This document shows positions 1,695 to 14,988 of a stretch of 17,149 bases of DNA, piece by piece. The DNA is taken from NCBI GenBank assembly GCA_014860725.1, contig JACZJD010000739.1, positions 1 to 17,149 of the forward strand, written 5' to 3'. The stretch comes from Aquamicrobium sp. GTDB lineage: Bacteria; Pseudomonadota; Alphaproteobacteria; Rhizobiales; Rhizobiaceae. The position numbers and the translations under genes are program-made. The notes under the pieces are model-generated. The model made no database searches. It was not told the origin of the DNA and saw nothing but the letters and a program-made list of their open reading frames with translations. Position 1 is the first letter of the stretch. Every line of letters starts with the position of its first letter.

Positions 1695-1726
1695 CCTGCG
1701 AGCGGCAGGCCGGCTACCGGTAGCCG
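1695..1726. terminator. Possible bidirectional terminator between torT and the IclR gene
   Basis: The convergent torT and IclR genes are separated by only 20 bases. Two dyads sit here: CCTGC-GAGCG-GCAGG at 1695-1709, and a perfect 16-base palindrome CGGCTACCGGTAGCCG at 1711-1726 that includes the IclR stop codon. Neither has a T-tract, so if they terminate transcription they are weak or factor-assisted. Confidence 0.35.
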
Positions 1727-2496
1727 AGCTGGCCGCGGATGCGGCTCGCGACCTCCTGGAGGCGTTCCAGGTGGACGGGCTTGCCGTTCTTGACCAGCTG
1801 CGGGGTGAGGCCGGCGATCGAGACCGCGCATACCGGCTTGCCGTCGCGGTCGAGCACCGGCACGGCCAGCGCGGTCAGGCCCAGCGCGACGTCGTCGACC
1901 GCGCATTCCCAGCCGCGCTCGCGGATGAGGGCGAGGCGCTTGCGCAGCTCCTTCTTCGAGGTGATGGATTTCTCGCTCAGCTGCTCCATCGGCTCGGAGA
2001 GCAGGCGCTCGATCTCCTCTTCCGGCTGGTAGGCCAGAAGCAGCTTCGGCGCGCCGCCGCAGTTGAGCGGCAGGGTGCCGCCGACCTGCCACCAGTGGAC
2101 CTCGAGGCCGCGCATGTCGTGGACGCGGTCGAGGCAGACGGCGGCGCCGTCCTTGAAGATCGACAGGAAGGCCGTGACGCTGAGCTCGCTGGCGAGCTCC
2201 AGCAGGGCAGGCTGGGCGATCGCCCGCAAATCCTGCGTGTCGCCGACATTCGACGCGAGATCGCGGATCGCCCGCCCGAGGCGGTAGTGATGGGTCAGCG
2301 GGTCCTGGGCGATGTAGTTGCTCTGCATCAGGGTGAGCAGAAGGCGGCGGGTCGTGCCCTTGTCCAGCCCCGTCGAGCCGCTCACCTCGGCGAGCGTCTG
2401 CAGGTCCTTCCCCGCGAAGGAGTTAAGCACCAGGAGCGCGCGGGTGACCGCGCGTACGTTCTGGACCGATGAGCCGCTGGTTTGCTTCCCCGCCAT
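1714..2496 (-). CDS. IclR-family transcriptional regulator
   Basis: The 260-residue product has the usual IclR length and architecture. An N-terminal winged helix-turn-helix covers residues about 13-75 (RALLVLNSFAG, LAEVSGSTGLDKGTTRRLLLTL, Y-DP-THHYRLG). It is followed by the IclR effector domain at about 90-255 (LRAIAQPALLELASE, TAFLSIFKDG, APKLLLAY, ERGWECAVDD, ALAVPVLDRDGKPVCAVSIAG). The start is supported by a purine-rich AAGAAGAGAAAG just upstream. IclR proteins usually control adjacent catabolic operons in response to a pathway metabolite. This gene sits directly downstream of the FAD oxidase and near the transport and catabolic operons, so it is the best candidate for their regulator (inference). 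The ATGTC-N7-GACAT dyad at 2541-2557, about 45 bases upstream of the start, suggests autoregulation or control by another factor. Ligand unknown. Confidence 0.93.
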   Translation of the reverse strand: MAGKQTSGSSVQNVRAVTRALLVLNSFAGKDLQTLAEVSGSTGLDKGTTRRLLLTLMQSNYIAQDPLTHHYRLGRAIRDLASNVGDTQDLRAIAQPALLELASELSVTAFLSIFKDGAAVCLDRVHDMRGLEVHWWQVGGTLPLNCGGAPKLLLAYQPEEEIERLLSEPMEQLSEKSITSKKELRKRLALIRERGWECAVDDVALGLTALAVPVLDRDGKPVCAVSIAGLTPQLVKNGKPVHLERLQEVASRIRGQLGYR

Positions 2497-2762: not shown

Positions 2763-4358
2763 CTATCCCGTGAGCCCGAGCGAGCCCGGGTTCATCAGCG
2801 TCCGCGGATCGACGGCCTTCTTGATGTCGCACAGCAGCGACCACGTGCCGTCGCTGAGGATTTCGCGGAAGGGATAGTCGCGCGCCACCTGCCAGCTTAC
2901 GCCGCCGAGCGACGCGTAGAGCTCCTGGGTGCCGCGGCGCAGCCTCGCCACGGCCTCGCGCGCCTGCGGGTTGGCGGCGCGGTCGCGCCACGGCTTCACC
3001 ACCTCCGCGCCGAGGCTGTTTTCGTGCAGCGGCGTGATCTCGTCCATCCAGTAGAAGGCGGGCTCGATGAAGAACTCGTTGCCCACGGTCATGGTCATGA
3101 CGGTGTAGACGATGCCGTGCTCCTTCATCTCGGCGGCGCGCTCGGCGAAGTAGACCTCGTTGGCGTCCACGACGCGCCCGGCGTCGCCGAGCGGAAAGAC
3201 GGCATGGATCGGCACCCAGCGCTCGCCGTTCAGCCCGAGCATGCCGCGCACCGGCGAGAACGGCCTGGCACGCATCACCTTCGGCACGCTGTTGGCGAGG
3301 CTCTTGCCGGTGCGCTCGCCGATCTCCTTCAGCGTCGCGACATTGACCTTCAGCTCCGCCGCGTTGCGCGCCTCGGTGACGATATGAAGCGTGTAGGGGT
3401 GCTTCATCAGGAATGCCGAGCCGGACGCCGCGATGTCGACCGCGTTCTTCACGCCTTCGAACAAAGATTTGCCAGCGCTGGCGACGTTGCCCAAGGTCTT
3501 CAGGCCGTCCGACAGGCGATTGACGCTCGCCGAATGCTGCGCCTTGGCGCGGTCGATGCCGAAGCCCTCGGAAACCATGCGCGTCCTCGCCATCGCGGTC
3601 TGGGCGAGCGCCATGTCCTTCAGCGTCTCGAAGCCGAAGGTGAGGTAGTCGACCTCGACCGGCTGCGGCCACAGCCTGAGCGTCGCGGCCGCCTTGATGC
3701 CCATCGCGCCGCTGTCGCCGAGGAAGAGGCCGGTCAGGTCCGGTCCGCCGTAGCGGGTGAAGGGCCGGGCGCCCTTGCGGCCACCGGAGCCTGTGGTGAC
3801 GATGCGGCCGTCGGCGAGGACGACGGTGACGCCCAGCACGCTCTCCGCCACGGTGCCGTTGAGCGCCGAGCCGAAGAAGGCGCTGTTCTGCGACAGCGCG
3901 CCGCCGACCGTGGCGCGGATGCCCGACAGCGGCCCCCAGTAGCCGGTGCGCAGGCCGGTTCCCTCGAGCGCCGCGTTGACCGCTTCCCAGGTCACGCCGG
4001 CCTCGACCGTGACATACTGGTCGGCGGCGTTGACCTCGACGATGCGGTTCATGTCGCGGGCGTCGACCACGATCGAGTCCGAGCGCTCCGGCAGGTAGCC
4101 CTTGGTGTAGGACATGCCGCCGCCGCGCGGCACGACCGAAATGCCGGCCTCGGTGGCGATGCGCACGGCCGCCGACAGCTCCTCGGCGGTGGACGGCATA
4201 ACGACAGCCAGCGGCGCGATGCCCGGCTGCCAGAAGATGTCGTTGGCGTAGAAGGTGCGCGTCTCGCGGTCGGCCTTGACGCGGTCGTCGCCGAGGCTGT
4301 CGCGCAAGGCGGCAATGACCATCAGGTCGTCGGTTCTGATGTGTTCGCTGATCGACAT
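2763..4358 (-). CDS. FAD-linked oxidase (VAO/PCMH type, GlcD-like)
   Basis: A 531-residue flavoprotein. The N-terminal FAD-binding (PCMH-type) domain covers roughly residues 40-235. It has the entry motif GIAPLAVVMPSTAEELSAAV, the pyrophosphate-binding loop PRGGGMSYTKGY (78-88), the VTVEAGVTWEAVN segment, the VGGALSQNS loop (151-159) and the LFLGDSGAMGI segment (211-221). The C-terminal substrate domain ends with KKAVDPRTLMNPGS, the usual closing motif of glycolate, D-lactate and related flavin oxidases. No signal peptide or membrane segment is seen, so it is likely cytoplasmic. The family oxidises 2-hydroxy acids or phenolic/allylic alcohols; the substrate here cannot be read from sequence. 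The start at 4358 is chosen for the GGAGGATGCG ribosome site directly upstream. It has its own promoter, which carries the operator module shared with the hydrolase-led operon. Confidence 0.9.
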   Translation of the reverse strand: MSISEHIRTDDLMVIAALRDSLGDDRVKADRETRTFYANDIFWQPGIAPLAVVMPSTAEELSAAVRIATEAGISVVPRGGGMSYTKGYLPERSDSIVVDARDMNRIVEVNAADQYVTVEAGVTWEAVNAALEGTGLRTGYWGPLSGIRATVGGALSQNSAFFGSALNGTVAESVLGVTVVLADGRIVTTGSGGRKGARPFTRYGGPDLTGLFLGDSGAMGIKAAATLRLWPQPVEVDYLTFGFETLKDMALAQTAMARTRMVSEGFGIDRAKAQHSASVNRLSDGLKTLGNVASAGKSLFEGVKNAVDIAASGSAFLMKHPYTLHIVTEARNAAELKVNVATLKEIGERTGKSLANSVPKVMRARPFSPVRGMLGLNGERWVPIHAVFPLGDAGRVVDANEVYFAERAAEMKEHGIVYTVMTMTVGNEFFIEPAFYWMDEITPLHENSLGAEVVKPWRDRAANPQAREAVARLRRGTQELYASLGGVSWQVARDYPFREILSDGTWSLLCDIKKAVDPRTLMNPGSLGLTG

Positions 4359-4384
4359 CGCATCCTCCACTGCAGTCCCGCATT

Positions 4385-4413
4385 CGAATAGGAGTTGCAA
4401 GTTCTCGTGTCAA
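4385..4413 (-). promoter_or_regulatory. Candidate promoter of the FAD oxidase gene
   Basis: On the reverse strand TTGACA (4413-4408) is followed after 17 bases by TATTCG (4390-4385), a perfect -35 with a weak -10. This would start transcription about 20 bases before the ATG at 4358, leaving just room for the GGAGG site. A weak -10 next to an upstream operator fits activator-dependent control. The TTGACACG is shared at identical spacing with the promoter at 13038-13043. Confidence 0.5.
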
Positions 4414-4425
4414 CGAATAGCATAG

Positions 4426-4442
4426 ATTTCATATAATGAAAT
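4426..4442. promoter_or_regulatory. Palindromic operator ATTTCAT-N3-ATGAAAT, site 1
   Basis: ATTTCATATAATGAAAT is a perfect inverted repeat with seven-base arms and a three-base spacer, in an AT-rich patch. It lies 13 bases upstream (gene orientation) of the TTGACACG of the FAD oxidase promoter, a typical activator position. The core TTTCAT-N3-ATGAAA recurs at 13057-13071. Short AT-rich palindromes with three-base spacers are plausible IclR-family sites, but the protein that binds here is not shown by the sequence. Confidence 0.7.
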
Positions 4443-4524
4443 ATCTTCTCCCTCCGGCACGGCAAGTCCGGGGGTCGCCGCACCCCGGCAGCGTTCCGGC
4501 ATCGAGGCGTTTCAAACCACGATC

Positions 4525-4541
4525 ATGTCATGGAGCGACAT
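4525..4541. promoter_or_regulatory. Dyad ATGTC-N7-GACAT upstream of the transporter operon (candidate operator)
   Basis: ATGTCATGGAGCGACAT has five-base arms, extended to six by a flanking C and G (CATGTC-N7-GACATG, 4524-4542). It ends 12 bases before the TTGACA of the transporter promoter, a good place for an activator. The arms and spacer length match the dyad at 2541-2557 upstream of the IclR gene. Confidence 0.5.
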
Positions 4542-4553
4542 GAGGATCATGGA

Positions 4554-4581
4554 TTGACAGGCTGCCTCGCCGGTGTATAGG
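4554..4581 (+). promoter_or_regulatory. Candidate promoter of the ABC importer operon
   Basis: TTGACA (4554-4559), a 16-base spacer and TATAGG (4576-4581) form a sigma-70-like promoter facing the transporter genes. It is the best match in the 485-base intergenic region. It implies a leader of about 255 bases before the first start codon. Confidence 0.55.
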
Positions 4582-4588
4582 CTGCCAT

Positions 4589-4843
4589 CGTTGGTGGAGG
4601 CTGACAGGGAGGCACTTCTTCACGCCACTCGTGCGCGCATGCATGGACAGACCGGAAGGCGGACATGTGTGAAGCTACGATCGTTTCCCGCAACGGAACG
4701 AATGGGCCATATCCGCAAGGATGATGGGGGGCTTCGTGCGCCCTCGATCCGGCCGGCGCGACGGAGGTGAGGGTTTCGGCAGCGTCCCGGCGGAGACACC
4801 GCTCGCCACCGCCCGAGGGCGGAAGCTAAGTTGGAGGAAGTTG
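4589..4843 (+). other. Long untranslated leader of the importer operon
   Basis: About 255 bases lie between the candidate promoter and the binding-protein start. Short open frames here lack ribosome sites and I do not call them genes. A small hairpin, CCGCC-CGAG-GGCGG at 4809-4822, sits ten bases before the GGAGG ribosome site (4833-4837) and could influence translation. I recognise no known riboswitch. Confidence 0.35.
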
Positions 4844-5998
4844 ATGATCATGAAGACCAGGAACATGCGCCTCGGGGCAGCCATTGCCGCCGTGACCTTC
4901 GCCATGGCGGGTGCCGCCTGGGCGGACCCCACCCCCGGCCAGTACAATATCGGCATTATCAGCGACGACACCGGCCCCGTCGCCTCGGCCGGCATCTCGT
5001 ATCACCGCGGCGCCGACCTCGCGATCGAGGAGATCAACGCCAAGGGCCTCGCCGGCGAAGGCGTGACCCTGAACATGCTCGTGAAGGACAGCGGCACGGA
5101 TGCGGCCCGCGCCGTGCAGGCGATGACGCAGTTCGCCGCCGACCGCACCGTGCTGGCCACCACCTGCTGCATCATCACCCCCATCGCCGGCGCGCTGGTG
5201 CCGATCGCGATGAACAACAAGCTGCCGCTGGTCATCTACGGCGCAACGCGCGACGGCCTGCCGCAGGAGCCGTATGTGACGTCGGTCGTGGCGCTGCCCG
5301 GGCCGCAGGAGGTCATGATGGCGCGGCGCCTCGCCGAGGAACTGAAGCCCAAGCGCGTCGCCTACTACGTCACCGGCGACAACGACATCTTCCTGACCCG
5401 CGCCCACGCCGTGAAGGCGGTGTTCGAGGAGGCGGGCGCCGAGACCGTCGCCGAGATCTCGACGCTCGCGAACGACACCGACTTCACCGGCCCGGCGACG
5501 CAGGGCATGGGCACCGATCCCGACCTCATCATGGTGATGACCACCCAGCAGCCGGCCGTCGGCATCATCTCGGCGCTGCGCCAGCGCGGCTACGAGGGCG
5601 TCATCGGCACGTCCGAGGTCATCTCGCCGCCCGCCATCTACCAGAAGTCGGGCGAGCTGATCGAGAACATCCCATTCGCGCTGTCGTTCCAGCCGGGCCT
5701 GTCGGACAGCCCGGAGGCCCTGGCCTTCATCGAGGCGTATCAGGCCAAATACAGTGAGCTTCCGGATGTCTATTCCGCCCAGGGCTACACCGCGATCCAC
5801 TACATCGCCCAGGGCATGAAGACGCTCGACGGCGACCCGACGCGCGAGAAGCTGGCCGAGGAGCTGTGGAAGATCACCTCGATCGAGCACAATCTCTATG
5901 GCGGTCAGGAGATCGTCAACGGTCAGGCCCAGATCCCCGAGACGCTGATCGTCAACTGGAACAGCAACGGCGAAGTCGTCCTCTGGGAGAAGCAGTGA
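4844..5998 (+). CDS. Branched-chain-amino-acid-type ABC transporter, substrate-binding protein
   Basis: A 384-residue periplasmic binding protein of the LivJ/LivK (Peripla_BP_6) type and the first gene of a five-gene importer operon. A signal peptide (about residues 7-27, hydrophobic GAAIAAVTFAMAGA) ends in AWA-DP. The mature start reads YNIGIISDDTGPVASAGISYHRGADLAIEEINAKG, the family's first strand and ligand loop. Next come DSGTDAARAVQAMTQF, the central LPLVIYGATRDGL and the YSAQGYTAIHYIAQGM segment near the C-terminus. The loop where many homologues have small hydroxyl residues reads ATTCCIITP, with adjacent cysteines, which may mark an unusual pocket or a disulfide. The start at 4844 has GGAGG six bases upstream; the ATG at 4850 is too far from it. 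The family carries amino acids, amides, urea and aromatic or organic acids; context favours the substrate of the neighbouring catabolic genes. Confidence 0.93.
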   Translation: MIMKTRNMRLGAAIAAVTFAMAGAAWADPTPGQYNIGIISDDTGPVASAGISYHRGADLAIEEINAKGLAGEGVTLNMLVKDSGTDAARAVQAMTQFAADRTVLATTCCIITPIAGALVPIAMNNKLPLVIYGATRDGLPQEPYVTSVVALPGPQEVMMARRLAEELKPKRVAYYVTGDNDIFLTRAHAVKAVFEEAGAETVAEISTLANDTDFTGPATQGMGTDPDLIMVMTTQQPAVGIISALRQRGYEGVIGTSEVISPPAIYQKSGELIENIPFALSFQPGLSDSPEALAFIEAYQAKYSELPDVYSAQGYTAIHYIAQGMKTLDGDPTREKLAEELWKITSIEHNLYGGQEIVNGQAQIPETLIVNWNSNGEVVLWEKQ

Positions 5999-5999
5999 C

Positions 6000-6887
6000 A
6001 TGCAACTGTTCCTCGAGCAGCTGGTGAACGGCATCGCGCTTGGCTCCCTGTATGGATTGTTCGGGATCGGTTTCGGGCTGGTCTTCGCCACGCTCGGAAT
6101 CCTGAACACCGCCCACGGCGCCTATGCCAGCTGGGCGGCCATCATCGGCTACTTCGCGGTGATCTGGTATGACGTATCGTTTCCGGTCGCGATCGCGGCC
6201 GGCGTCATCGGCGGCGGCCTTCTGGCCATCGCCGTCGACCAGATCGGTTTCCAGCCGCTCAGGAACAGAAAGACGGGGATGCTGGGGGCACTGATCACCA
6301 GCATCGCCTTCCTCATCATCCTCGACAGCCTCGCCGGCATGGCGACGAACCATCAGAGCTGGGCCTTCCCGGCGCGCACCTATCCGCGCGGCATGCTCGA
6401 TCTCGGCTTCATGCGCATTCCCTACATGCAGCTCATCATCATCGGCTCCATGCTGTTCTGCGCGACAGGCATCTACCTGCTGATCCAGAAGACGCGGATC
6501 GGCGCGGCCATGCGCGCCGTCGGCTGGAGCGCGGAGGCCGCCTCGCTCGGCGGCGTGAACGCCCGCATGGTCATCCTCCTGACCGCCTTCCTCGCCGGCG
6601 CGACTTCGGGGCTGGCGGGGGTCCTCGGGGGTGCTGCGACCTCCAACATCTCCTACATGCTCGGCGAGGGCCTGCTGCTCAAGGGCTTCGCGGCCGTGGT
6701 CGTCGGCGGCTACGACGACGTGCGCGGCACGGTCCTGGCCGGCATCCTGCTCGGCATCTGCGAGGTGTTCATCGCGCAGTACCTGTCCACGACCTTCCGT
6801 GACGGCTTCACCTACATCCTGCTCCTCACCTTCCTCGTGATGCGGCCCCGCGGCATCTTCGGCAGCGGCAACTTCCTGAGGGCCTGA
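6000..6887 (+). CDS. LivH-type ABC transporter permease
   Basis: A 295-residue inner-membrane permease of the BPD_transp_2 (LivH/LivM) family. The N-terminus is the hallmark LivH start (MQLFLEQLVNGIALGSLYGLFGIGF, then LGILNTAHGAYA). About eight hydrophobic segments follow. The cytoplasmic coupling region includes TRIGAAMRAVGWSAEAASLGGVN, the usual EAA-like loop touching the ATPases. Near the C-terminus, GFAAVVVGGYDDVRGTVLAGILLGICE and VMRPRGIFG are family signatures. It begins one base after the binding-protein stop codon, so it is translated as part of the same operon, and its stop overlaps the next start (TGATG). It forms the membrane channel with the LivM-type permease. Confidence 0.95.
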   Translation: MQLFLEQLVNGIALGSLYGLFGIGFGLVFATLGILNTAHGAYASWAAIIGYFAVIWYDVSFPVAIAAGVIGGGLLAIAVDQIGFQPLRNRKTGMLGALITSIAFLIILDSLAGMATNHQSWAFPARTYPRGMLDLGFMRIPYMQLIIIGSMLFCATGIYLLIQKTRIGAAMRAVGWSAEAASLGGVNARMVILLTAFLAGATSGLAGVLGGAATSNISYMLGEGLLLKGFAAVVVGGYDDVRGTVLAGILLGICEVFIAQYLSTTFRDGFTYILLLTFLVMRPRGIFGSGNFLRA

Positions 6888-7759
6888 TGATGGAAGCCAT
6901 TCTGGATTTCTGGGCGGCCTATTCGGCCACCATCGCCTTCGGCCTCGTCAACTCCTTCATCGCGCTCAGCTGCTATGCCGTGCTCTCGGCCGGCGTGCTC
7001 AGCTTCACGACGGTGATGTTCGCGGCGGTCGGCGGCTTCTTCGCGGCGCAGATGATCGGCATCTTCAACATTCCCGCCATGCTGGCCTTCCTGCTGGCAG
7101 GGGTCGCCGGCGGCGTCGCCGCGGCGGTCATCGCCTTCCTGTTCCTGCGGCTCGAGACCCACTGGATGGCGCTCGCCAGCCTGGCGCTGGTGCTGATCAC
7201 CCGCGTCGTCGTCCTCAACACGCCGGCGCTGACCGGCGGCGTCCAGGGCCTGCTGGTGCCCGTCCGCGTCAGCGTGCTGGAGCTGTTCATCGCGCTGTCG
7301 ATCACGGCATTCGTGTTCTACCGCATGCACAACTCCTGGTACGGGCTGGTGTCGCGCGCCGTGCGCGAGGACCCGGCCGTCGCCTCCACCATGGGCATCA
7401 GCACCTATCGCATCCAGTTCATCGCCTTCCTCATCAGCGGCGCGGTGGGCGGGATCGGCGGCGCGGCGCTGGCGACGACGCTTCAGTTTATCTCGGCCGA
7501 CACCTACTTCCTCGCGCTCGCCTTCACCATGATCGCCTCGACCGTGCTGGGCGGCTCGTTCCACTGGTTCGGGCCGATCGTCGGCGCCTTCGTGTTCACG
7601 GCGCTGCCGACGACGATGCAGGCGGTGGTCCCCGAGATCCAGGACGTGGCGAAGGGCGTCGTGCTCCTCGTCATCATGATCCTGCTGCCGCGCGGGCTCA
7701 TCGATCCGCGCGTGCTCAAGCTGCGCAAGGCGCGCCGCAAGGAGCAGGCCGATGCATGA
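6887..7759 (+). CDS. LivM-type ABC transporter permease
   Basis: A 290-residue permease and partner of the preceding LivH-type protein. Hydrophobic segments span the protein. The family motifs are VNSFIALSCYAVLSAGVLSFTTVMFAAVGGF near the start, the coupling loop SRAVREDPAVASTMGISTYRIQFIAFLISGAVGGIGGA (about residues 150-190), and FTMIASTVLGGSFHWFGPIVGAFVF toward the end. The C-terminus is the usual MILLPRGLIDPRV followed by basic residues in the cytoplasm. The ATG at 6887 overlaps the upstream stop codon. An ATG three bases on (6890) is slightly better spaced from the GAGGG at 6878-6882 and may be the true start. At 290 residues it is on the short side for LivM. Confidence 0.94.
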   Translation: MMEAILDFWAAYSATIAFGLVNSFIALSCYAVLSAGVLSFTTVMFAAVGGFFAAQMIGIFNIPAMLAFLLAGVAGGVAAAVIAFLFLRLETHWMALASLALVLITRVVVLNTPALTGGVQGLLVPVRVSVLELFIALSITAFVFYRMHNSWYGLVSRAVREDPAVASTMGISTYRIQFIAFLISGAVGGIGGAALATTLQFISADTYFLALAFTMIASTVLGGSFHWFGPIVGAFVFTALPTTMQAVVPEIQDVAKGVVLLVIMILLPRGLIDPRVLKLRKARRKEQADA

Positions 7760-8552
7760 GGCGCAGACGCTCCTGGAACTGCGCGGCGTCGTCAAGCACT
7801 TCGGCGGCGTCGCCGCCGTCGGCGGGCTGTCGACCTCGGTCCGCAAGGGCTCGGTCCACGGCCTGATCGGCCCGAACGGCGCCGGCAAGACGACGGTGAT
7901 CAACCTGATCACCGGCCTCTTCCATCCGACCGACGGGGAAATCCTGTTCGAGGGCAACCATCTCGAGACGCGGGCGCCGCACGACATCGCGGCGCTCGGC
8001 ATCAGCCGCACCTATCAGAACGTGCGCCTGTTCAGCGGCATGTCGGCGCTGGAGCAGGTGCTGACCGGCTGCTACCTGCGCCGCGGGTCGAGCCTGTTCG
8101 CCTCCTTCGCGGGCCTGCCGAAGGCGCGGCGGGACTGGGAGGACGCGCGGGCGAAGTCGCTGGCGCTCCTCGCCCGCGTCGGCATGGCCGACAAGGCCGA
8201 CGTGCTCGCCGAGACGCTTTCCTACGGCGAGCAGCGGCGCATCGAGATCGCGCGCGCTCTGGGCTCCGACCCGGCGCTCCTGCTTCTCGACGAGCCGACG
8301 GCCGGCATGAACCACGCCGAGAGCCAGGCGATCGGCCGGCTGGTGCACGAGCTGCGCGACGGCGGTCTCACCATCCTGATGGTCGAGCACAATATGGGGC
8401 TGGTCACGGAGTTCTGCGACAGCTGCACGGTGATGAACTTCGGCAAGCTCCTCGCAGAGGGCACGCCGCGCAGCTGCATCGACGATCCCGAGGTGCAGGC
8501 TGCCTATTTCGGACGGAAGAACGATGCTGCACGTAACCAACCTGTCGGCTAG
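7752..8552 (+). CDS. LivG-type ABC transporter ATPase
   Basis: A 266-residue ATP-binding subunit. It shows Walker A GPNGAGKTT (about residues 37-45), the Q-loop in ISRTYQNVRLF, the signature LSYGEQRRIEIARAL, Walker B LLLLDEPTAGMN and the H-loop in ILMVEHNMGLV. The spacing between Q-loop and signature, with an inserted segment (SSLFASFAGLPKARRDWEDA), and the C-terminal tail after EVQAAYFG, are typical of LivG. Its start overlaps the end of the permease gene by eight bases and its own 3' end overlaps the next ATPase gene by 29 bases, so expression is tightly coupled. It powers uptake together with the LivF-type subunit. Confidence 0.95.
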   Translation: MHEAQTLLELRGVVKHFGGVAAVGGLSTSVRKGSVHGLIGPNGAGKTTVINLITGLFHPTDGEILFEGNHLETRAPHDIAALGISRTYQNVRLFSGMSALEQVLTGCYLRRGSSLFASFAGLPKARRDWEDARAKSLALLARVGMADKADVLAETLSYGEQRRIEIARALGSDPALLLLDEPTAGMNHAESQAIGRLVHELRDGGLTILMVEHNMGLVTEFCDSCTVMNFGKLLAEGTPRSCIDDPEVQAAYFGRKNDAARNQPVG

Positions 8553-9219
8553 CTACGGCGCGATCCGCGCCGTGAGGGGCGTCAGCCTCAAGGTCGCGCC
8601 GGGGTCGCTCTGCGTGGTCCTCGGCTCCAACGGCGCCGGCAAGTCGACCACCCTGCGCAGCATCGCCGGACTCCACCGGCCCGTCGAAGGTTCGATCACC
8701 CTTCAGGACCGCGAGATTTCGCGTCTGCGCGTCCATCAGGTCGTGCGTCAGGGCCTCGCCCTGGTGCCGGAAGGGCGCATGGTCGTCGCGCCGCTGACCG
8801 TCGAGGAGAATCTCGACCTGAGCGGCTTTGCCGGGCGCGGCGGCAATGGCGGCCAGCTCGAGCGCGTCTACGAGCTTTTCCCGCGCCTCAAGGAGCGGCG
8901 CCAGCAGAAGGCGGGCCTGCTTTCCGGCGGCGAGCAGCAGATGCTCGCCATCGGCCGGGCGCTGATGACGCAGCCGCAGGTCCTGGTCCTCGACGAGCCG
9001 TCCATGGGGCTGGCGCCGTCGATCGTCGACCTCGTGTTCGACGCCATCGTGGCGCTGCACAGGCAGGGCCAGTCGATCCTGCTCGTCGAGCAGAACGCGG
9101 CGATCGCGCTCTCGGTCTGCGACTACGGCTACGTCATGCGGCGCGGCGAGATCGTCATCGAGGGCACGGCCGAGATGCTTCGGGAAAGCCCCGAGGTGAT
9201 GAAGGCGTATCTTTCCTGA
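8524..9219 (+). CDS. LivF-type ABC transporter ATPase
   Basis: A 231-residue second ATPase and the last gene of the importer operon. It has Walker A GSNGAGKST (about residues 36-44), the LivF-typical ALVPEGRMVVAPLTVEENL, the signature LSGGEQQMLAIGRAL, Walker B VLVLDEPSMGLAP and the H-loop SILLVEQNAAIAL. It ends EVMKAYLS, as most LivF proteins do. A GGACGGAAG ribosome site precedes the ATG. The 29-base overlap with the LivG-type gene is longer than usual for this operon type. A strong stem-loop lies downstream at 9258-9305. Confidence 0.95.
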   Translation: MLHVTNLSASYGAIRAVRGVSLKVAPGSLCVVLGSNGAGKSTTLRSIAGLHRPVEGSITLQDREISRLRVHQVVRQGLALVPEGRMVVAPLTVEENLDLSGFAGRGGNGGQLERVYELFPRLKERRQQKAGLLSGGEQQMLAIGRALMTQPQVLVLDEPSMGLAPSIVDLVFDAIVALHRQGQSILLVEQNAAIALSVCDYGYVMRRGEIVIEGTAEMLRESPEVMKAYLS

Positions 9220-9319: not shown

Positions 9320-10210
9320 TCAGGCCGCGTTGCGGCCGGGGCCGTTCTCCAGATATTTGAGCTGCAGCTTCTCGATCTCCTCGAAGCCGATCAGCTCGAC
9401 GAAGTCGTGATGCACCATGCGCTTGTGCGGCAGGTTGCGCGAGTGCTTGTCCCTGACGAGCTGGGCGAGGTTGTCCTGAAGCACCTGCGCCACGCTCATC
9501 AGCGGGACGAGGGGGAAGGTGGCGAGGCCGGCCACGCTCTCGATGTCGGCGGGGGCAAGCTCCTGCTCCAGCCAGCCGAGGACCTGCAGCGAGAGCGGGA
9601 CGCCCGCCTCCTGCCGCAGCGACTTCAGCGCATCGAGGTTGCGGAAGGTGTTGCTGATCGGCTGCACGACATCGGCGCCCGCCGCCACATAGGCCTTGGC
9701 GCGGGCGATCGCCTCGGGCACCGTGGCGGCGTCGGTGCGGGCGACGATGAGCATGTGGGGGTTGCGGCGCGCCTCGACGGCGGCCTCGATCTTCTTCGCG
9801 GCCTCCTCCATCGGAATGGTCTCGACGCCCGCGACGCAGATCGGGCAGCGCTTGGGCGCGACCTGGTCCTCCATGATCACGGCCGCGGCACCCGCATTCT
9901 CGAACTCGCGGATCGCGCGCATGGCGTTGATGGCGTTGCCGTAGGCGGTGTCGATGTCGGCCACCACCGGCACGTCGACCGCGTTGACGACGTTGCGGAC
10001 GACGCCGACATTCTCGGTTAGCGTGTAGAGCTCGGCGTCGGGCATGCCGAGCAGCGACGCCGACACGCCGAAGCCGCTGGTCATGATGCCCTCGAAGCCG
10101 GCGCGCTCGATCATCCTGGCGGAGAAGGCGTCGTAGGCGCCGCCCATCCACACCGTCTTCTGGGCCAGCACCCGCTCCCGGAACTCTGCGCTTGCGCCGC
10201 GATGCATCAT
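9320..10210 (-). CDS. Isocitrate lyase/PEP mutase-superfamily C-C lyase
   Basis: A 296-residue TIM-barrel enzyme of the methylisocitrate lyase/2,3-dimethylmalate lyase/PEP mutase group. Conserved elements in order are GGAYDAFSARMIERAGFE, TSGFGVSASLLGMPD, the metal-binding ADIDTAYGNA (Asp85, Asp87), MEDQ (Glu114) and IVARTDA (157-161). The catalytic loop reads PKRCPIC (119-125). The loop cysteine (Cys122), which separates lyases from PEP mutases, is present, but the usual KKCGH or KRCGH is not: Pro-Ile replaces Gly-His. Such lyases split 2-hydroxy di- or tricarboxylates into pyruvate, glyoxylate or another 2-oxo acid plus a second carboxylate. The ATG at 10210 overlaps the LeuD-like stop (ATGA), with AGGGAG six bases upstream. 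As the last gene of the operon it probably cleaves the product of the LeuC/LeuD-like hydro-lyase. Exact substrate unknown. Confidence 0.88.
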   Translation of the reverse strand: MMHRGASAEFRERVLAQKTVWMGGAYDAFSARMIERAGFEGIMTSGFGVSASLLGMPDAELYTLTENVGVVRNVVNAVDVPVVADIDTAYGNAINAMRAIREFENAGAAAVIMEDQVAPKRCPICVAGVETIPMEEAAKKIEAAVEARRNPHMLIVARTDAATVPEAIARAKAYVAAGADVVQPISNTFRNLDALKSLRQEAGVPLSLQVLGWLEQELAPADIESVAGLATFPLVPLMSVAQVLQDNLAQLVRDKHSRNLPHKRMVHHDFVELIGFEEIEKLQLKYLENGPGRNAA

Positions 10211-10755
10211 GTCGAACTCCCTGTTTCCTGCCCATGGCCGCCGGTGGCGGGGGCATCGCTCTGCTTGATGTAGCCGATGAGGCCGCCGGCCTCGAGCATC
10301 GCCCGGTCGGCCAGCGACAGCGGCTCGATCGGCAGCGACGTTCCCCGTGTCAGGTTGCGGACCTCGTTGGCGTCGTAGTCCACCTCGATCTCGTCCCAGC
10401 GCTCCACCAGCCCGAGGATTCCGGGGCATGTCGCCTGCGGGAAGCCCATGCTGATCTCGCCGCGCCAGTAGCCGGGCGAGAACGACTCGCAGACCACGCC
10501 GGCGATGCCGAGATGGCGCATCGCGCGCATGGGCGGGTAGTGCGGGTGGCCGTAGCCGAAATTGTGGTTGCCGACCAGGATGTCGCCCGGCTTCACCTTG
10601 TCGCGGAAGTCCGGGTCGTAGGCTTCCATCGCCACGGCGGCCAGCTCGTCGATATCGGTGATCTTGATGTTCTTGACGCCGACGATCTGGTCGACGTCGA
10701 AGTTGATCTCGTCGAAGATGAAGGCGACCCGGCCGCGAAGTGTCTTCAGCGTCAT
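10207..10755 (-). CDS. LeuD-like small subunit of an aconitase-superfamily hydro-lyase, divergent active site
   Basis: A 182-residue swivel-domain protein matching the size of 3-isopropylmalate dehydratase small subunits. The N-terminus RGRVAFIFDEINFDVDQIVG corresponds to the family's RG-(x)n-D-N-DTDQI. GDILVGNHNFGYGHPHYPP (58-75) corresponds to the family's GENFGCGSSREHAP loop, and VVCESFSPGYWRGEISMGFP follows as the SFA-IF-RN-(x)n-G-P counterpart. Notably the SSRE part, which carries the catalytic serine and a substrate-binding arginine in aconitase and LeuD, is replaced by GHPH, and no YLRT-type specificity loop is seen. This points to a different substrate or chemistry. It starts seven bases after the LeuC-like stop codon, with GAGG before the ATG, and its stop overlaps the lyase start. 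It almost certainly forms a complex with the LeuC-like subunit. Confidence 0.82.
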   Translation of the reverse strand: MTLKTLRGRVAFIFDEINFDVDQIVGVKNIKITDIDELAAVAMEAYDPDFRDKVKPGDILVGNHNFGYGHPHYPPMRAMRHLGIAGVVCESFSPGYWRGEISMGFPQATCPGILGLVERWDEIEVDYDANEVRNLTRGTSLPIEPLSLADRAMLEAGGLIGYIKQSDAPATGGHGQETGSST

Positions 10756-10761
10756 CGGTCC

Positions 10762-12018
10762 TCACATGTACTTTCTCGGGTCCGCGATCTTCCCCTCGAT
10801 CGCCGAGGCGGCGACCGTGGCGGCGCTGCACAGGTAGATTTCCGAATCCGGGCTGCCCATGCGGCCGCGGACGTTGAGCGTGCCGGTCGAGACGGCGCGC
10901 TGCTTCGCCGTCATCGTGCCGATGCGGCCGTAGCAGTAGTCGCAGGTCGGGGCCGAGACGAAGGCGCCGGCCTCGGTGAGGATCGACAGCAGGCCCTCGC
11001 GGCCGGCGGCGGCCATGATCTCCTGGCTGGTGGGGACGACGTTCAACTGGAAGCCCGGCGCCACCTGACGCCCTTCCAGAATCTTCGCGGCGATCCGCAG
11101 GTCCTCGATGCGGCCGGACGCGCAGGAGCCGAGATAGCCGGCATTGAGCTCCAGCCCGACATAGTCGGTGAGGTTGCGCGAATTGGCCGGCGTCGGCGGC
11201 ACGACCACCAGCGGCTCGAGCTGGTCGAGGTCGATCTCGTAGACGGCGGAATATTCCGCGTCGGGATCGCTGTAGACCGGCTCCAGCGTCTTGCGGGCGC
11301 GCGGCAGCGCATAGGCGAGGCGCTCCTCGTCGGGGTTGACGATGGCGGTGATCGCGCCGGTGAACATCGCCAGCCCGGTGATGGTCTGGAGGCCCTCGGT
11401 CGAAATCTGCGACAGCGCCGGGCCGCCGATCTCCAGCACCTGGAAGCGGCAGGAGGCCGGGCCCATGACGCGCACGAGATGGTGGAAGACGTCGCGCGCC
11501 ATGACGCCCTTGCCCAGCGTGCCGGTCAGGTTGACGCGGACCGTCTTCGGAACCTTGATCGAGATTCGCTCGCGCACCAGCGCCTCGAGCAGGCTGCGGC
11601 GGACGCCCATGGCCAGCGTGCCGAACGTGCCGAGCTGGCTGATGTGGCCGTCGAAGTGGACGACGAAGGCGCCAGGCACGGCATAGCCGACCTCGGCGGC
11701 GACCTGGTGGCCGATGCCCTTGCGCTCGAAGAGGGGGACGTTGTTTTCCGCGCACCAGTTGCGCGTGATGATGTGGAGCTCTTCTTCCTTCGGCGTCGCG
11801 GCGGGCACCATGTGGTCGATGAACATGGCGTAGCGCTCCGGCTCCGCGACCCTGTCGATGCCGAACTCCTCCTTCATCTGCCTGAAGTAGACGTCGGTGT
11901 AGCCGGGGAAGTCGTAGGCGATGACGTAGTCGGGTTTCGCCATCACCTCGTCGCCGGCCTTCACGCGGTCCCTGCCGGACACGCGCGCCAGGATCTTCTC
12001 CGCTATCGTGTAGCCCAT
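10762..12018 (-). CDS. LeuC-like large subunit of an aconitase-superfamily hydro-lyase
   Basis: A 418-residue iron-sulfur protein of the size of archaeal-type 3-isopropylmalate dehydratase large subunits. The start MGYTIAEKILARVSGRDRVKAGDEV is the standard LeuC opening, which fixes the ATG at 12018 although the nearby AGGA is close. FIDHMVP (66-72) matches the family's DH-VP. HFDGHISQLGTFGTLAMG (121-138) stands where HTDSHTTTLGAFGALAFG is usual. The three cluster ligands are present: Cys299 in GSCASGRIEDL, and Cys359 and Cys362 in PTCDYCYGRIG. A [4Fe-4S] cluster is therefore likely. The enzyme would dehydrate and rehydrate a hydroxy-dicarboxylate, moving the hydroxyl. Changes at key positions (DGH for DSH) and the odd partner small subunit argue against a leucine-biosynthesis role; the neighbours are catabolic. 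Dimethylmaleate hydratase is a known relative with similar logic. Confidence 0.87.
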   Translation of the reverse strand: MGYTIAEKILARVSGRDRVKAGDEVMAKPDYVIAYDFPGYTDVYFRQMKEEFGIDRVAEPERYAMFIDHMVPAATPKEEELHIITRNWCAENNVPLFERKGIGHQVAAEVGYAVPGAFVVHFDGHISQLGTFGTLAMGVRRSLLEALVRERISIKVPKTVRVNLTGTLGKGVMARDVFHHLVRVMGPASCRFQVLEIGGPALSQISTEGLQTITGLAMFTGAITAIVNPDEERLAYALPRARKTLEPVYSDPDAEYSAVYEIDLDQLEPLVVVPPTPANSRNLTDYVGLELNAGYLGSCASGRIEDLRIAAKILEGRQVAPGFQLNVVPTSQEIMAAAGREGLLSILTEAGAFVSAPTCDYCYGRIGTMTAKQRAVSTGTLNVRGRMGSPDSEIYLCSAATVAASAIEGKIADPRKYM

Positions 12019-12091
12019 CGTCCTACTCGTCTGGTTTGGCTGGTGCTGTCGCACTGGCAATCCGCAATTCGTTTCGGCTCCCGCTTTCCGC

Positions 12092-12985
12092 TCATGCCGC
12101 CTGTTCCGGCCGGAAGCCGTAGCCGCCGCCGGTGCGGAAGATCCGCCCGGCATGAGGCGCGCCGAAATGCATCGGCATCAGCAGCGCGCCGGTGTCGGCG
12201 CAGTAGTCGAGCAGCCTGCGGCGGGTGGCCTCGGCGAGGTCGACATATTCGCAGAAGCGGCTCGTCACATGCGGCTCGTAGACCTGGACCGGATGGTGGA
12301 TGACGTCGGCCGAGATCACGAAGCCGCCGCCCGGCGCCTCGTACTTGACCATGAGCTGGTTGAGCGTATGGCCGGGCGCGGCCTCCACCCTGAGGCCGGG
12401 GACGATCTCGTCGCCGTCGTCGACGAACTCGGCCTTTCCCGCGGCGACGACCGGCAGCACGCTGTCCTCGATCACGGCGACGTTCTCCGGGAAGACCGCG
12501 GGCCCCTTTCCGTCACCGGTCCAGTGCTCGTACTCCTTGCGGCCGAAGACGTAGCGCGCCTTGGGGAAGGCCGGGACCCACTCGCCGTTCACGTTGTGCG
12601 TGTTCCAGCCGACATGGTCGATGTGAAGGTGGGTGCAGAAGACGACGTCGATGTCCTCCGGCCCGAAGCCCGCGCGCGCGAGATTGTCCATGTAGGGGAA
12701 GTTCAGCATGTGGAAGCGCTGGAAGATCGGCAGCGCGCGCGCCTTGCCGTTTCCCGAGCAGGTGTCGATGAGGATGTTCCGGCCGTCGAGCGTCACGAGC
12801 CAGGAGTGGATGCTGCTCCAGTAGCGGCCGGACTCGCGGTCGATGAAGCCCGGCCCGCCGGCCACCGGATGCCGGTCGAGCATCGAGGCGTCGAAGTCGC
12901 GAAGCATGAACTCCGGCGTGTAACCCAGTTCGATGACCTCCTCGATCCGTCTCACGACGGCGTCGCCGACCCTGAAATGCGTCAC
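12092..12985 (-). CDS. Metallo-beta-lactamase-fold hydrolase (possible lactonase)
   Basis: A 297-residue cytoplasmic MBL-fold protein and the first gene of the catabolic operon. The metal ligands are all visible: THLHIDHVG (His119, His121, Asp123, His124), PGHT (His206), SADVIHH (Asp227) and MPMHFG (His273), which predicts a di-metal site. NILIDTCSGNG is the usual strand before the active site. The overall pattern resembles the quorum-quenching lactonase/methyl parathion hydrolase branch, so an ester or lactone substrate is plausible; a thioester is an alternative. The start codon is GTG at 12985, chosen for the strong AGGAGGAG five bases or so upstream. The gene is followed after 73 bases by the LeuC-like gene, on the same strand and without a visible terminator. 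The shared promoter-operator module lies just upstream. Confidence 0.9.
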   Translation of the reverse strand: MTHFRVGDAVVRRIEEVIELGYTPEFMLRDFDASMLDRHPVAGGPGFIDRESGRYWSSIHSWLVTLDGRNILIDTCSGNGKARALPIFQRFHMLNFPYMDNLARAGFGPEDIDVVFCTHLHIDHVGWNTHNVNGEWVPAFPKARYVFGRKEYEHWTGDGKGPAVFPENVAVIEDSVLPVVAAGKAEFVDDGDEIVPGLRVEAAPGHTLNQLMVKYEAPGGGFVISADVIHHPVQVYEPHVTSRFCEYVDLAEATRRRLLDYCADTGALLMPMHFGAPHAGRIFRTGGGYGFRPEQAA

Positions 12986-13014: not shown

Positions 13015-13055
13015 GTCTAAGCCTGCGGCGACGAACGTGTCAATATGCAATTATA
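13015..13055 (-). promoter_or_regulatory. Candidate promoter of the hydrolase-LeuC-LeuD-lyase operon
   Basis: On the reverse strand TTGACA (13043-13038) is followed after 17 bases by a weak -10, TTAGAC (13020-13015), giving a leader of about 23 bases before the GTG at 12985. An alternative perfect TATAAT lies at 13055-13050, directly next to the operator, but with no good -35. The first reading is favoured because the same TTGACACG occurs at identical spacing from the operator upstream of the FAD oxidase. Confidence 0.45.
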
Positions 13056-13056
13056 G

Positions 13057-13071
13057 TTTCATAGAATGAAA
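13057..13071. promoter_or_regulatory. Palindromic operator TTTCAT-N3-ATGAAA, site 2
   Basis: TTTCATAGAATGAAA is a perfect inverted repeat, flanked by an outer TATAG (13052-13056) and CTATA (13073-13077) with one extra T, so the dyad spans about 26 bases. Its core equals that of the site at 4426-4442, and it stands the same 13 bases from a TTGACACG. Confidence 0.7.
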
Positions 13072-13261: not shown

Positions 13262-14350
13262 CTAGGTCGTCTCGTCGAGCAGTTCGCCGGCCTCGTCGTC
13301 GGAGATCGCGATGCCGGCCTTCTTGCGGTATTCGCGCGGCGTCAGCCCCATCCAGCGCTTGAAGGCGAGGGTGAAGGCCGTGGTCGAGGAGTATTCGAGC
13401 ATGCCGGCGACGCTGGAGATCGGCACGCCGGTCTGGGCGAGCATCCGGCAGGCCATCGACTGCCGCGTCTGGTCGAGCACGTCGGAGAAGGAGGTTCCCT
13501 CATGCGCGAGCAGGCGCTGCAGCTTCTTGGGCGAGGTGCCCATCGAGCTGGCGATGAACTCCTTGGTGCACGAGCCGGTGCCGATCACGCTCTGGATCGC
13601 CATCTCGACGGTCGCGCGCACCGACTGGTCGTAGAGCGGCATGCGCCGGATGCGGTAGCGGATGAAGCTGTCGACGATGGTCTTGAGCGACTTGAGCCGG
13701 CCGTTGGTGGGGCTGTCGAGCAGGCTGCGCGCGAAGACGATGTCGGTATGCTCCGCCTCGAACTGCATGTCGCAGCGGAACGCCTCCTCGTGCAGGCTCG
13801 TGTCCTCGGGCCTCGGATGCCTGAAGCGGACGGCGACCGGGTCCTCGTCGGGAAGCCCCGTGACCACCCGCGCCATGTTGCAGGCATAGGCGATGATGTG
13901 CTCCATCGGCTGGCGCGGCGGAAGGATCAGCGGGCTCTGCCAGAAGCGCATGGTCACGGTGTCCCCAACGCCGTCGTCGAGCAGCTGCACCAGATAGGCG
14001 TTGGTATGATAGCGCCAGTATCGCGCGCCCTGGTCGAGCCATTCCCCGAGCGTGTCGACGAGCTGGGCCATGAACACCACCGGCCCCACATTCGGGAAGT
14101 GCGGCGGTATGCTGAGCGCCCATTCGATGCCGAAGAACGGCCTGTCGAGCTCGGCCGCGGCCAGCTCCATCAGCACGCCCAGCCGCTGCCAGGAGATCAG
14201 CATGTCGGGATCGGTCAGGGCGTCAGGGTCGATGCCCACGCGCTCGACCAGCCGCATGGGGTCGCCTCCCGCCTGTCTCACCATGTCGGAAAACCCGAAA
14301 AACACGGCGGCGCGGATGTATGGGTCTCCATGCACCAGTCCGGTGGTCAT
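13262..14350 (-). CDS. AraC-family regulator with arabinose-binding-type N-terminal domain
   Basis: A 362-residue protein. Residues about 20-210 resemble the N-terminal domain shared by OruR/ArgR-like AraC regulators: RAAVFFGFSDMVRQAGGDPMRLVERVGID, then ISWQRLGVLMELAAAELDRPFFGIEWA. The C-terminal AraC DNA-binding domain covers about 265-350, with FIASSMGTSPKKLQRLLAHEGTSF as the first helix-turn-helix and VAGMLEYSSTTAFTLAFKRWMGLTPREYR as the conserved second. The start at 14350 follows a GGGAAGG site; an upstream in-frame ATG at 14395 is less well placed. A GACATGTC palindrome (14369-14376) lies about 20 bases upstream of the start and shares its half-site with the dyads at 2541 and 4525, so this protein is a second candidate to bind those. 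It is transcribed toward the catabolic operon but separated from it by the promoter at 13015-13071. Its inducer is unknown. Confidence 0.92.
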   Translation of the reverse strand: MTTGLVHGDPYIRAAVFFGFSDMVRQAGGDPMRLVERVGIDPDALTDPDMLISWQRLGVLMELAAAELDRPFFGIEWALSIPPHFPNVGPVVFMAQLVDTLGEWLDQGARYWRYHTNAYLVQLLDDGVGDTVTMRFWQSPLILPPRQPMEHIIAYACNMARVVTGLPDEDPVAVRFRHPRPEDTSLHEEAFRCDMQFEAEHTDIVFARSLLDSPTNGRLKSLKTIVDSFIRYRIRRMPLYDQSVRATVEMAIQSVIGTGSCTKEFIASSMGTSPKKLQRLLAHEGTSFSDVLDQTRQSMACRMLAQTGVPISSVAGMLEYSSTTAFTLAFKRWMGLTPREYRKKAGIAISDDEAGELLDETT

Positions 14351-14988
14351 GCGGCCTTCCCATTTTGAGACATGTCGCAGGGGAAAGGCGCCCATTAGAC
14401 GCCGGGGGTGGTGCCGGCAACCCCTTCCCCTGCGTCGTCTCGGCGCGCCCGCCGGCGGCCCTCAGACCGGCTTTCCGCCGTGATTTTTCGACGTTTTCCG
14501 GCCATTTCGGCCGGAATCGCCGTCTGTGGCGGGGTTCGAGCGGCAATTCCCTCAAGGTGAGGTCGCGCGAAGGGCGGAATCGTCGTCCGTCCTGCTGCGG
14601 AATGGTACTTTTTTCGTGTCCTCAAATATGGATTTCTTCGTCTCGCGATTAATATTTCTGGTAATCCAAAATTATATTCAATCACTGCCCCTTATAATTC
14701 GATGAAACATTTACATTGCGATAATAATTGGCAAGTCAAAGGAAGATCGTCTTTCCACAGGTGGGGTGGAGCGCCGGCAAGCGGACCATCGGCCCGGCGC
14801 GGGGCGAACAGGGGCTGACGACGCCGGCTTAGGCAGCCGGCGGCCGATCGCGCGCGATTGATCCTCGATTTCCGGGACCCGGGCGCGATCCGGAGCCCGG
14901 ATTGCCCGCATCTCCGGAAAGACCAACTGAAACCGGACTTGGCATCCTCGATAAGAAAATCGGCAGGATGGATGCGGGAAAACATAAA
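14351..14988. other. 638-base intergenic region with AT-rich centre
   Basis: This region separates the divergent AraC-family and chemoreceptor genes. I see no gene: the open frames here have no ribosome sites and no family resemblance. The part from about 14600 to 14740 is clearly more AT-rich than the rest of the window (for example AATATTTCTGGTAATCC and TTATAATTCGATG) and probably holds promoters or protein-binding sites. The GACATGTC palindrome at 14369-14376 is near the AraC-family start. Confidence 0.5.
14928..14954 (+). promoter_or_regulatory. Possible flagellar-type (sigma-28) promoter of the chemoreceptor gene
   Basis: TGAAA (14928-14932), 14 bases and CTCGATAA (14947-14954) resemble the sigma-28 consensus TAAA-N15-GCCGATAA, with mismatches. 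It lies 34 bases before the ATG. The position and the chemotaxis product make it reasonable, but the match is imperfect and an ordinary promoter further upstream is equally possible. Confidence 0.3.

Follow-up and report, generated by a model that had tools for sequence, protein, structure and literature searches.

Does the short sequence that recurs upstream of separate catabolic units in this Aquamicrobium DNA form a common control element, and if so, which regulator would read it and how? The window (the whole analysed stretch of 17,149 nucleotides) encodes the candidate pathway genes, two candidate regulators and three copies of the sequence, which we call modules A, B and C (Table 1). The preliminary description had claimed two identical copies at the same spacing, intergenic and in the same orientation relative to the gene, and unlikely to have arisen by chance. 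All of this holds for modules A and B: the 20 fixed positions of TTTCAT-N3-ATGAAA-N13-TTGACACG are present without mismatch in both, each in intergenic DNA and oriented toward its own gene, with the coordinates of the first copy having been given one too high. With up to three mismatches allowed the window still contains exactly these two matches, and 200 dinucleotide shuffles contain none (mean 0.00, largest 0). A third and weaker copy, module C, reads TGTCATGGAGCGACA-N13-TTGACA, with four mismatches in the palindrome and none in TTGACA; its ortholog in locus L001 has two palindrome mismatches. One module copy stands before each of three units, namely FAD oxidase, transporter and hydrolase/LeuCD/lyase operon, and the proposed small regulon is thus kept as a regulon with a shared module and corrected in its extent from two units to three. 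No match to the DNA of window positions 4340-4860 was found in plasmid records.

Table 1. Genes and module copies in the window, with the boxes of each module.
Feature	Position	Strand	Remarks
IclR-family regulator	1714..2496	-	Pfam HTH_IclR and IclR_C; proposed binder
FAD-binding oxidase, GlcD-like	2763..4358	-	predicted start codon
Module A	4406..4441	-	5' of FAD oxidase
Module A, box 1 TTTCAT	4436-4441	-	
Module A, box 2 ATGAAA	4427-4432	-	
Module A, box 3 CTAT	4417-4420	-	3/4 to TTRY
Module A, box 4 / putative -35 TTGACA	4408-4413	-	
Module C	4526..4559	+	third, weaker copy; 5' of ABC-transporter operon starting near 4844
Module C, box 1 TGTCAT	4526-4531	+	
Module C, box 2 GCGACA	4535-4540	+	
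Module C, box 3 TCAT	4547-4550	+	3/4 to TTRY
Module C, box 4 / putative -35 TTGACA	4554-4559	+	
ABC-transporter operon	4844..9219	+	ORFs, Pfam, translations
Solute-binding protein	4844-5998	+	Pfam Peripla_BP_6
Permeases	6000-6887, 6887-7759	+	role read from translations
ATPases	7752-8552, 8524-9219	+	role read from translations
Hydrolase-led operon	9320..12985	-	
Isocitrate lyase/PEP mutase-family lyase	9320-10210	-	predicted start
LeuD-like protein	10207-10755	-	narrowly under LeuD/DmdB model (101.5 vs 108.95)
LeuC-like protein	10762-12018	-	Aconitase domain; aconitase family
MBL-fold hydrolase	12092-12985	-	lactonase models match below cut-off
Module B	13036..13071	-	5' of hydrolase operon
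Module B, box 1 TTTCAT	13066-13071	-	
Module B, box 2 ATGAAA	13057-13062	-	
Module B, box 3 TTGC	13047-13050	-	4/4 to TTRY
Module B, box 4 / putative -35 TTGACA	13038-13043	-	
AraC-type regulator	13262-14395	-	best NCBIfam model QhpR, below cut-off; directly upstream of module B

The IclR-type protein belongs to that family by its domains (HTH_IclR, 45 bits against a cut-off of 22; IclR_C, 102.2 bits against 24). Its best NCBIfam model is PcaR/PcaU/PobR (TIGR02431), with 122.6 bits against a cut-off of 284.75, followed by BhcR (NF045644), with 107.5 bits against 350, so that neither assignment reaches its cut-off. The pairing of LeuCD with an isocitrate-lyase-family protein is reminiscent of 2,3-dimethylmalate breakdown. 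Adjoining the IclR gene is a gene for a TorT-like periplasmic protein (779-1693, +; among the NCBIfam models PRK10936 above and TIGR02955 below cut-off).

Scanning genome contigs yielded five IclR-bearing loci, one from Mesorhizobium microcysteis (90% identity), one from Microvirga massiliensis and three from Hoeflea; among 397 genomes of the order, 14 carry the gene at E<=1e-60, M. microcysteis among them again. In loci of a split type (the window, L001-L005, L036, L040, L043) the genes form three separate units: FAD oxidase, transporter and hydrolase operon. In those of a compact type (L037-L039, L041, L042, L044-L047) hydrolase, FAD oxidase, LeuCD and lyase are consecutive and divergent from the IclR gene, and a single module lies between that gene and the catabolic row. 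At L048, L095 and L096, where the IclR protein is 40-45% identical, the IclR gene has a module on either side: one is directed toward LeuCD-lyase and the other toward a transporter assigned to the TRAP type by DctP and DctM domains in L095 and by translation likeness in L048 and L096; at L103 the module is upstream of an SBP_bac_5 transporter protein. Since ABC, TRAP and SBP_bac_5 units are all preceded by the module, it accompanies three unrelated transporter types. A second MBL-fold hydrolase gene in M. microcysteis (L001 10948-11763, +; product 42.5% identical to that of the window) is located downstream of the IclR gene, and no module was found upstream of it. At L036 2420-2453 (-), a module-like site adjoins an acyl-CoA synthetase-like gene and is oriented the opposite way.

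The preliminary description had looked to orthologous upstream regions for conservation, and this was found. We examined 41 upstream regions of our own choosing, mostly from loci found via the IclR gene, with L095, L096 and L103 coming from the pattern search described below, and picked the best palindrome in each without use of TTGACA. A TTGACA (at most one mismatch) is placed exactly 13 bases past that palindrome in 35 of the 41, against an average of 0.125 for the other 40 spacings. Of the six misses, the window transporter and the L001 FAD oxidase were cases in which a neighboring unit's palindrome outscored, the FAD oxidases of L040 and L043 have no module, and in L044 and L046 a better palindrome is located elsewhere while the module itself is present with four mismatches. 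The register of the predicted tandem IclR operator to the putative -35 element is thus unusually fixed. In the 39 sites that remain after removal of the L040 and L043 FAD oxidases, the best -10 match falls 16-18 bases past TTGACA in 31, a position that mildly supports a -35 role for TTGACA. The quality of these matches is near that of shuffles (mean 3.26 of 6 vs. about 2.9), and no consensus -10 was found downstream of TTGACA in the 39 sites. If TTGACA is the -35 element, the centers of the distal and the proximal palindrome would by our arithmetic fall near -57 and -38, respectively.

The same 39 sites, in which box 4 was required to be within one mismatch of TTGACA, were used for column counts and a half-site scan. 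The final CG of TTGACACG, previously taken as a fixed part, is variable: its first base is C in 16 sites, T in 16, G in 5 and A in 2, and its second is G in 20, A in 13, T in 4 and C in 2. Positions 21-24, within the supposed 13-base spacer, are conserved (T in 37, T in 36, A or G in 39, C or T in 37). When a half-site matrix derived from boxes 1 and 2 is run along the sites, the best-scoring additional copy in forward orientation lies at +19 (mean 0.26 vs. a background of -16.7, sd 2.0), a result free of selection, and the best-scoring additional copy in reverse orientation, which is TTGACA, lies at +19 as well (4.9 vs. -16.6, sd 1.9), a result partly conditioned by the picking of sites within one mismatch of TTGACA. 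In the unconditioned set, the 35 regions with TTGACA at 13 bases, box 3 is TTRY in 31; in the window the full fit is seen in module B only. Box 3 has T in place of the half-site's conserved C. Box 4 begins with T in all 35, whereas box 2 has A (26) or G (9) at the corresponding position, which suggests a -35 constraint added to the half-site; box 4 looks like a half-site bent toward the -35 consensus. The module is therefore best described, as far as base patterns can tell, as two predicted IclR-type palindromes with centers 19 bp apart and TTGACA as the putative fourth half-site, the N13 "spacer" concealing a predicted third (box 3). Tandem IclR sites have a second palindrome 18-22 nt away, centre to centre, and here one is found at +19, with box 4 partly conditioned. 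Of the earlier picture of an operator followed by a free -35 box, the operator is retained and the free -35 box is not, TTGACA being the last half-site of the second palindrome. We rejected a single operator with a free -35, given that the scan places both extra boxes at +19.

The explanation that we favor as a whole, with moderate confidence, is that each copy acts as a tandem operator-promoter module of 34 bp on which the IclR-family protein works. This protein would occupy the palindrome TKTCAY-N3-RTGAMA and the weaker palindrome TTRY-N3-TTGACA as two adjacent dimers or as a single tetramer, and the last half-site of the weaker palindrome would double as the promoter -35 element. The three units (FAD oxidase, transporter, hydrolase/LeuCD/lyase operon) would be under joint control in response to a pathway substrate or intermediate as the putative ligand, with activation through contact with RNA polymerase and possibly repression without ligand. 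The FAD oxidases of L040 and L043, which lack the module, count against this explanation.

The sign of control had been read as activation from a position just upstream of the -35. That argument is weakened because the second dimer would sit on the -35 itself, and a dimer placed there is equally compatible with repression. Activation is still favored, in that the constant spacing, the T that always opens box 4 and the weak -10 matches together make activation or dual control the somewhat likelier outcome if the protein binds. By analogy we also count for activation BhcR of Paracoccus denitrificans, an IclR-type activator from an alphaproteobacterium, whose potential palindrome lies upstream of a -35 and whose target operon is divergent (passages on BhcR in PMC11323563). 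The same protein on the same tandem sites could instead be a pure repressor, a tetramer covering the -35 and blocking RNA polymerase until the pathway ligand releases it. This is a real, if clearly less likely, possibility: the proximal palindrome includes TTGACA, IclR and AllR are described as repressors released by glyoxylate (in part of PMC11323563), and the family holds repressors, activators and dual regulators (in part of PMC8222616). However, a pure repressor would be free to sit anywhere over its promoters, yet the TTGACA register is identical in 35 of the 41 regions, three transporter kinds included, and the poor -10 matches are as expected of promoters needing help. We give even chances to a further reading, in which the -35 hexamer is itself the fourth half-site, so that at almost all promoters of the regulon one set of six bases would be recognized by both sigma factor and IclR tetramer, and in which this shared-code module would have been moved to each new unit, non-homologous transporters included, upon a pathway split or transporter swap.

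It is improbable that the distal palindrome is the only operator, with the conserved spacer and TTGACA being mere promoter sequence (an A/T tract and the -35). The group-1 IclR consensus is indeed a single palindrome in the parts of PMC8222616 consulted, TTGACA is a consensus -35, and box 3 is without the conserved C. Both extra boxes, however, are at the same +19 offset and in the right orientation, and 19 is within the 18-22 nt published for tandem sites (same parts of PMC8222616). Moreover, M. massiliensis (G005; L062 sites 8216 and 8266, -) has a pair of modules upstream of the hydrolase gene, separated by 50 bp, and the outer, upstream one has ATGACA instead of TTGACA as box 4, a half-site without a -35.

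The preliminary description had proposed that the IclR protein of the window binds the module. For a comparison independent of the IclR gene, we searched the 397 genomes with TKTCAY-N3-RTGAMA-N13-TTGACA (at most one mismatch) and found it at 37 places in 26 genomes, against 2 places for the reversed control. The module is present in 12 of the 14 genomes with the IclR gene vs. 14 of the 383 without (Fisher p = 3e-14, a value that is too optimistic because the genomes are related). The IclR-bearing genomes missed by the pattern, G075 and G111, each have a copy with two mismatches, and among the 14 module genomes without an IclR match, two (G029 and G186) have a distant IclR gene next to their sites. 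Box 3 formed no part of this pattern. It reads TTRY in 19 of the 24 hits whose genomes carry the IclR gene, or a distant copy, and in none of the 13 remaining hits. These 13 are module-like hits from 12 genomes without an IclR match; in the 5 of those 12 loci that were examined, no IclR match above 28% identity was found at E<=1e-8. The loci share the IclR gene as their regulator, in part because of how they were collected. Because the module tracks the IclR gene across the 397 genomes, that protein is very probably the binder, a prediction to which conservation upstream, the fit to the group-1 half-site core and the absence of AraC relatives also contribute. Binding by another regulator, such as the AraC-type protein, whose gene sits directly upstream of module B, is very unlikely, since the module goes together with the IclR gene; that AraC proteins mostly recognize direct repeats counts against it as well. 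We set this protein aside after finding a relative at E<=1e-40 in 0 of 20 module-bearing genomes, a search that shows little in itself as it was run without a positive control. A chance resemblance or a recently copied, functionless stretch, conceivable while the copies were just two sequences of one window, we regard as refuted by the search of the 397 genomes, by 47 matches to the full pattern (at most three mismatches) against 1 for the reversed control in 20 genomes, and by the spacing result for the 41 regions; the shuffles and the retention of the module at loci whose IclR protein is only 40-45% identical speak against it as well.

How does the module compare with described systems? In the parts of the study by Suvorova and Gelfand (2021; PMC8222616) used here, tandem IclR sites 18-22 nt apart are predicted for transcription factors of 94 orthologous groups and three-box sites for 32 groups, and the module is a predicted new instance of such tandem sites. 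Like group-1 sites (subgroup WTT-11-AAW; consensus WTTYCRYW3RYGRAAW, core T-T-Y-C-R-Y), it has an odd-length palindrome with a three-base centre; the core T-Y-C-R-Y is found in the 39 sites (T 39, C 36, A/G 39, C/T 37) and mirrored in box 2, with position 1 being T in 23 and G in 15. Unlike group-1 sites, its centre is mixed and not A/T only, its outer base is A (23), G (15) or C (1), and box 3 departs at the conserved C; unlike the sites of that source as far as consulted, its last half-site coincides with TTGACA. The three-box site (TGRAACA-N1-2-TGTTYCA) does not fit boxes 2 and 3, where by our alignment the gap is N0 and the C of TTYCA is T. The main text of PMC8222616 contains none of the pathway names LeuC, COG0065, COG0277, COG2513, GlcD and PrpB, the string LeuC occurring just within "leucine" of a reference title.

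The regulators closest by model, PcaR/PcaU/PobR, offer partial parallels. PcaU and PobR sites have an extra direct half-site (PMC8222616, in part), and PcaR can act as an activator or as a repressor, according to the promoter and to where its box lies (PMC12455658, in part). They differ from the window protein in having half-sites of the GTTCGAT type and other pathways, and its score is far under their cut-off. BhcR differs in serving the beta-hydroxyaspartate cycle, and a tandem site is absent from the passages on BhcR in PMC11323563. A literature search for an IclR protein with the TTTCAT and ATGAAA motif, or for the pathway, found no paper on the cluster, with relevance partly judged by title.

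What began as a guess from two sites becomes a defined predicted regulon with a 34-bp operator. It would tie an FAD oxidase, a lactonase-like hydrolase, a LeuCD-type dehydratase and an isocitrate-lyase-family lyase to three transporter kinds. The invariant register of tandem operator to TTGACA may offer a clean system for IclR-family activation and repression where the regulator would touch the -35; the dual-function mechanism of such regulators is called unclear in PMC12455658 (in the part consulted).

The preliminary description had also suggested a genome-wide motif scan, which we ran in relatives. By our count, 38 of the 47 full-pattern matches precede units of the cluster (G164:C1:920574 by position only), and 9 are elsewhere. 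Among the latter, G032:C1:170419 is directed away from the nearest clear gene, another G032 site is read backwards, G005:C4:418554 has no clear downstream gene, and one more is at G003:C7:101015. Others precede the binding-protein gene of another transporter (G070) and, both in G103, a second gene for an ABC binding protein and a further FAD-oxidase gene. M. microcysteis has four sites within 19 kb, and its outside match, at a distance of about 8 kb from the hydrolase module, precedes a gene for an enoyl-CoA hydratase/3-hydroxyacyl-CoA dehydrogenase. Finally, in Hoeflea marina the module precedes an SMP-30/gluconolactonase-like gene (L104 3113-4156, -) far from the cluster, hinting at a lactone as a pathway intermediate.
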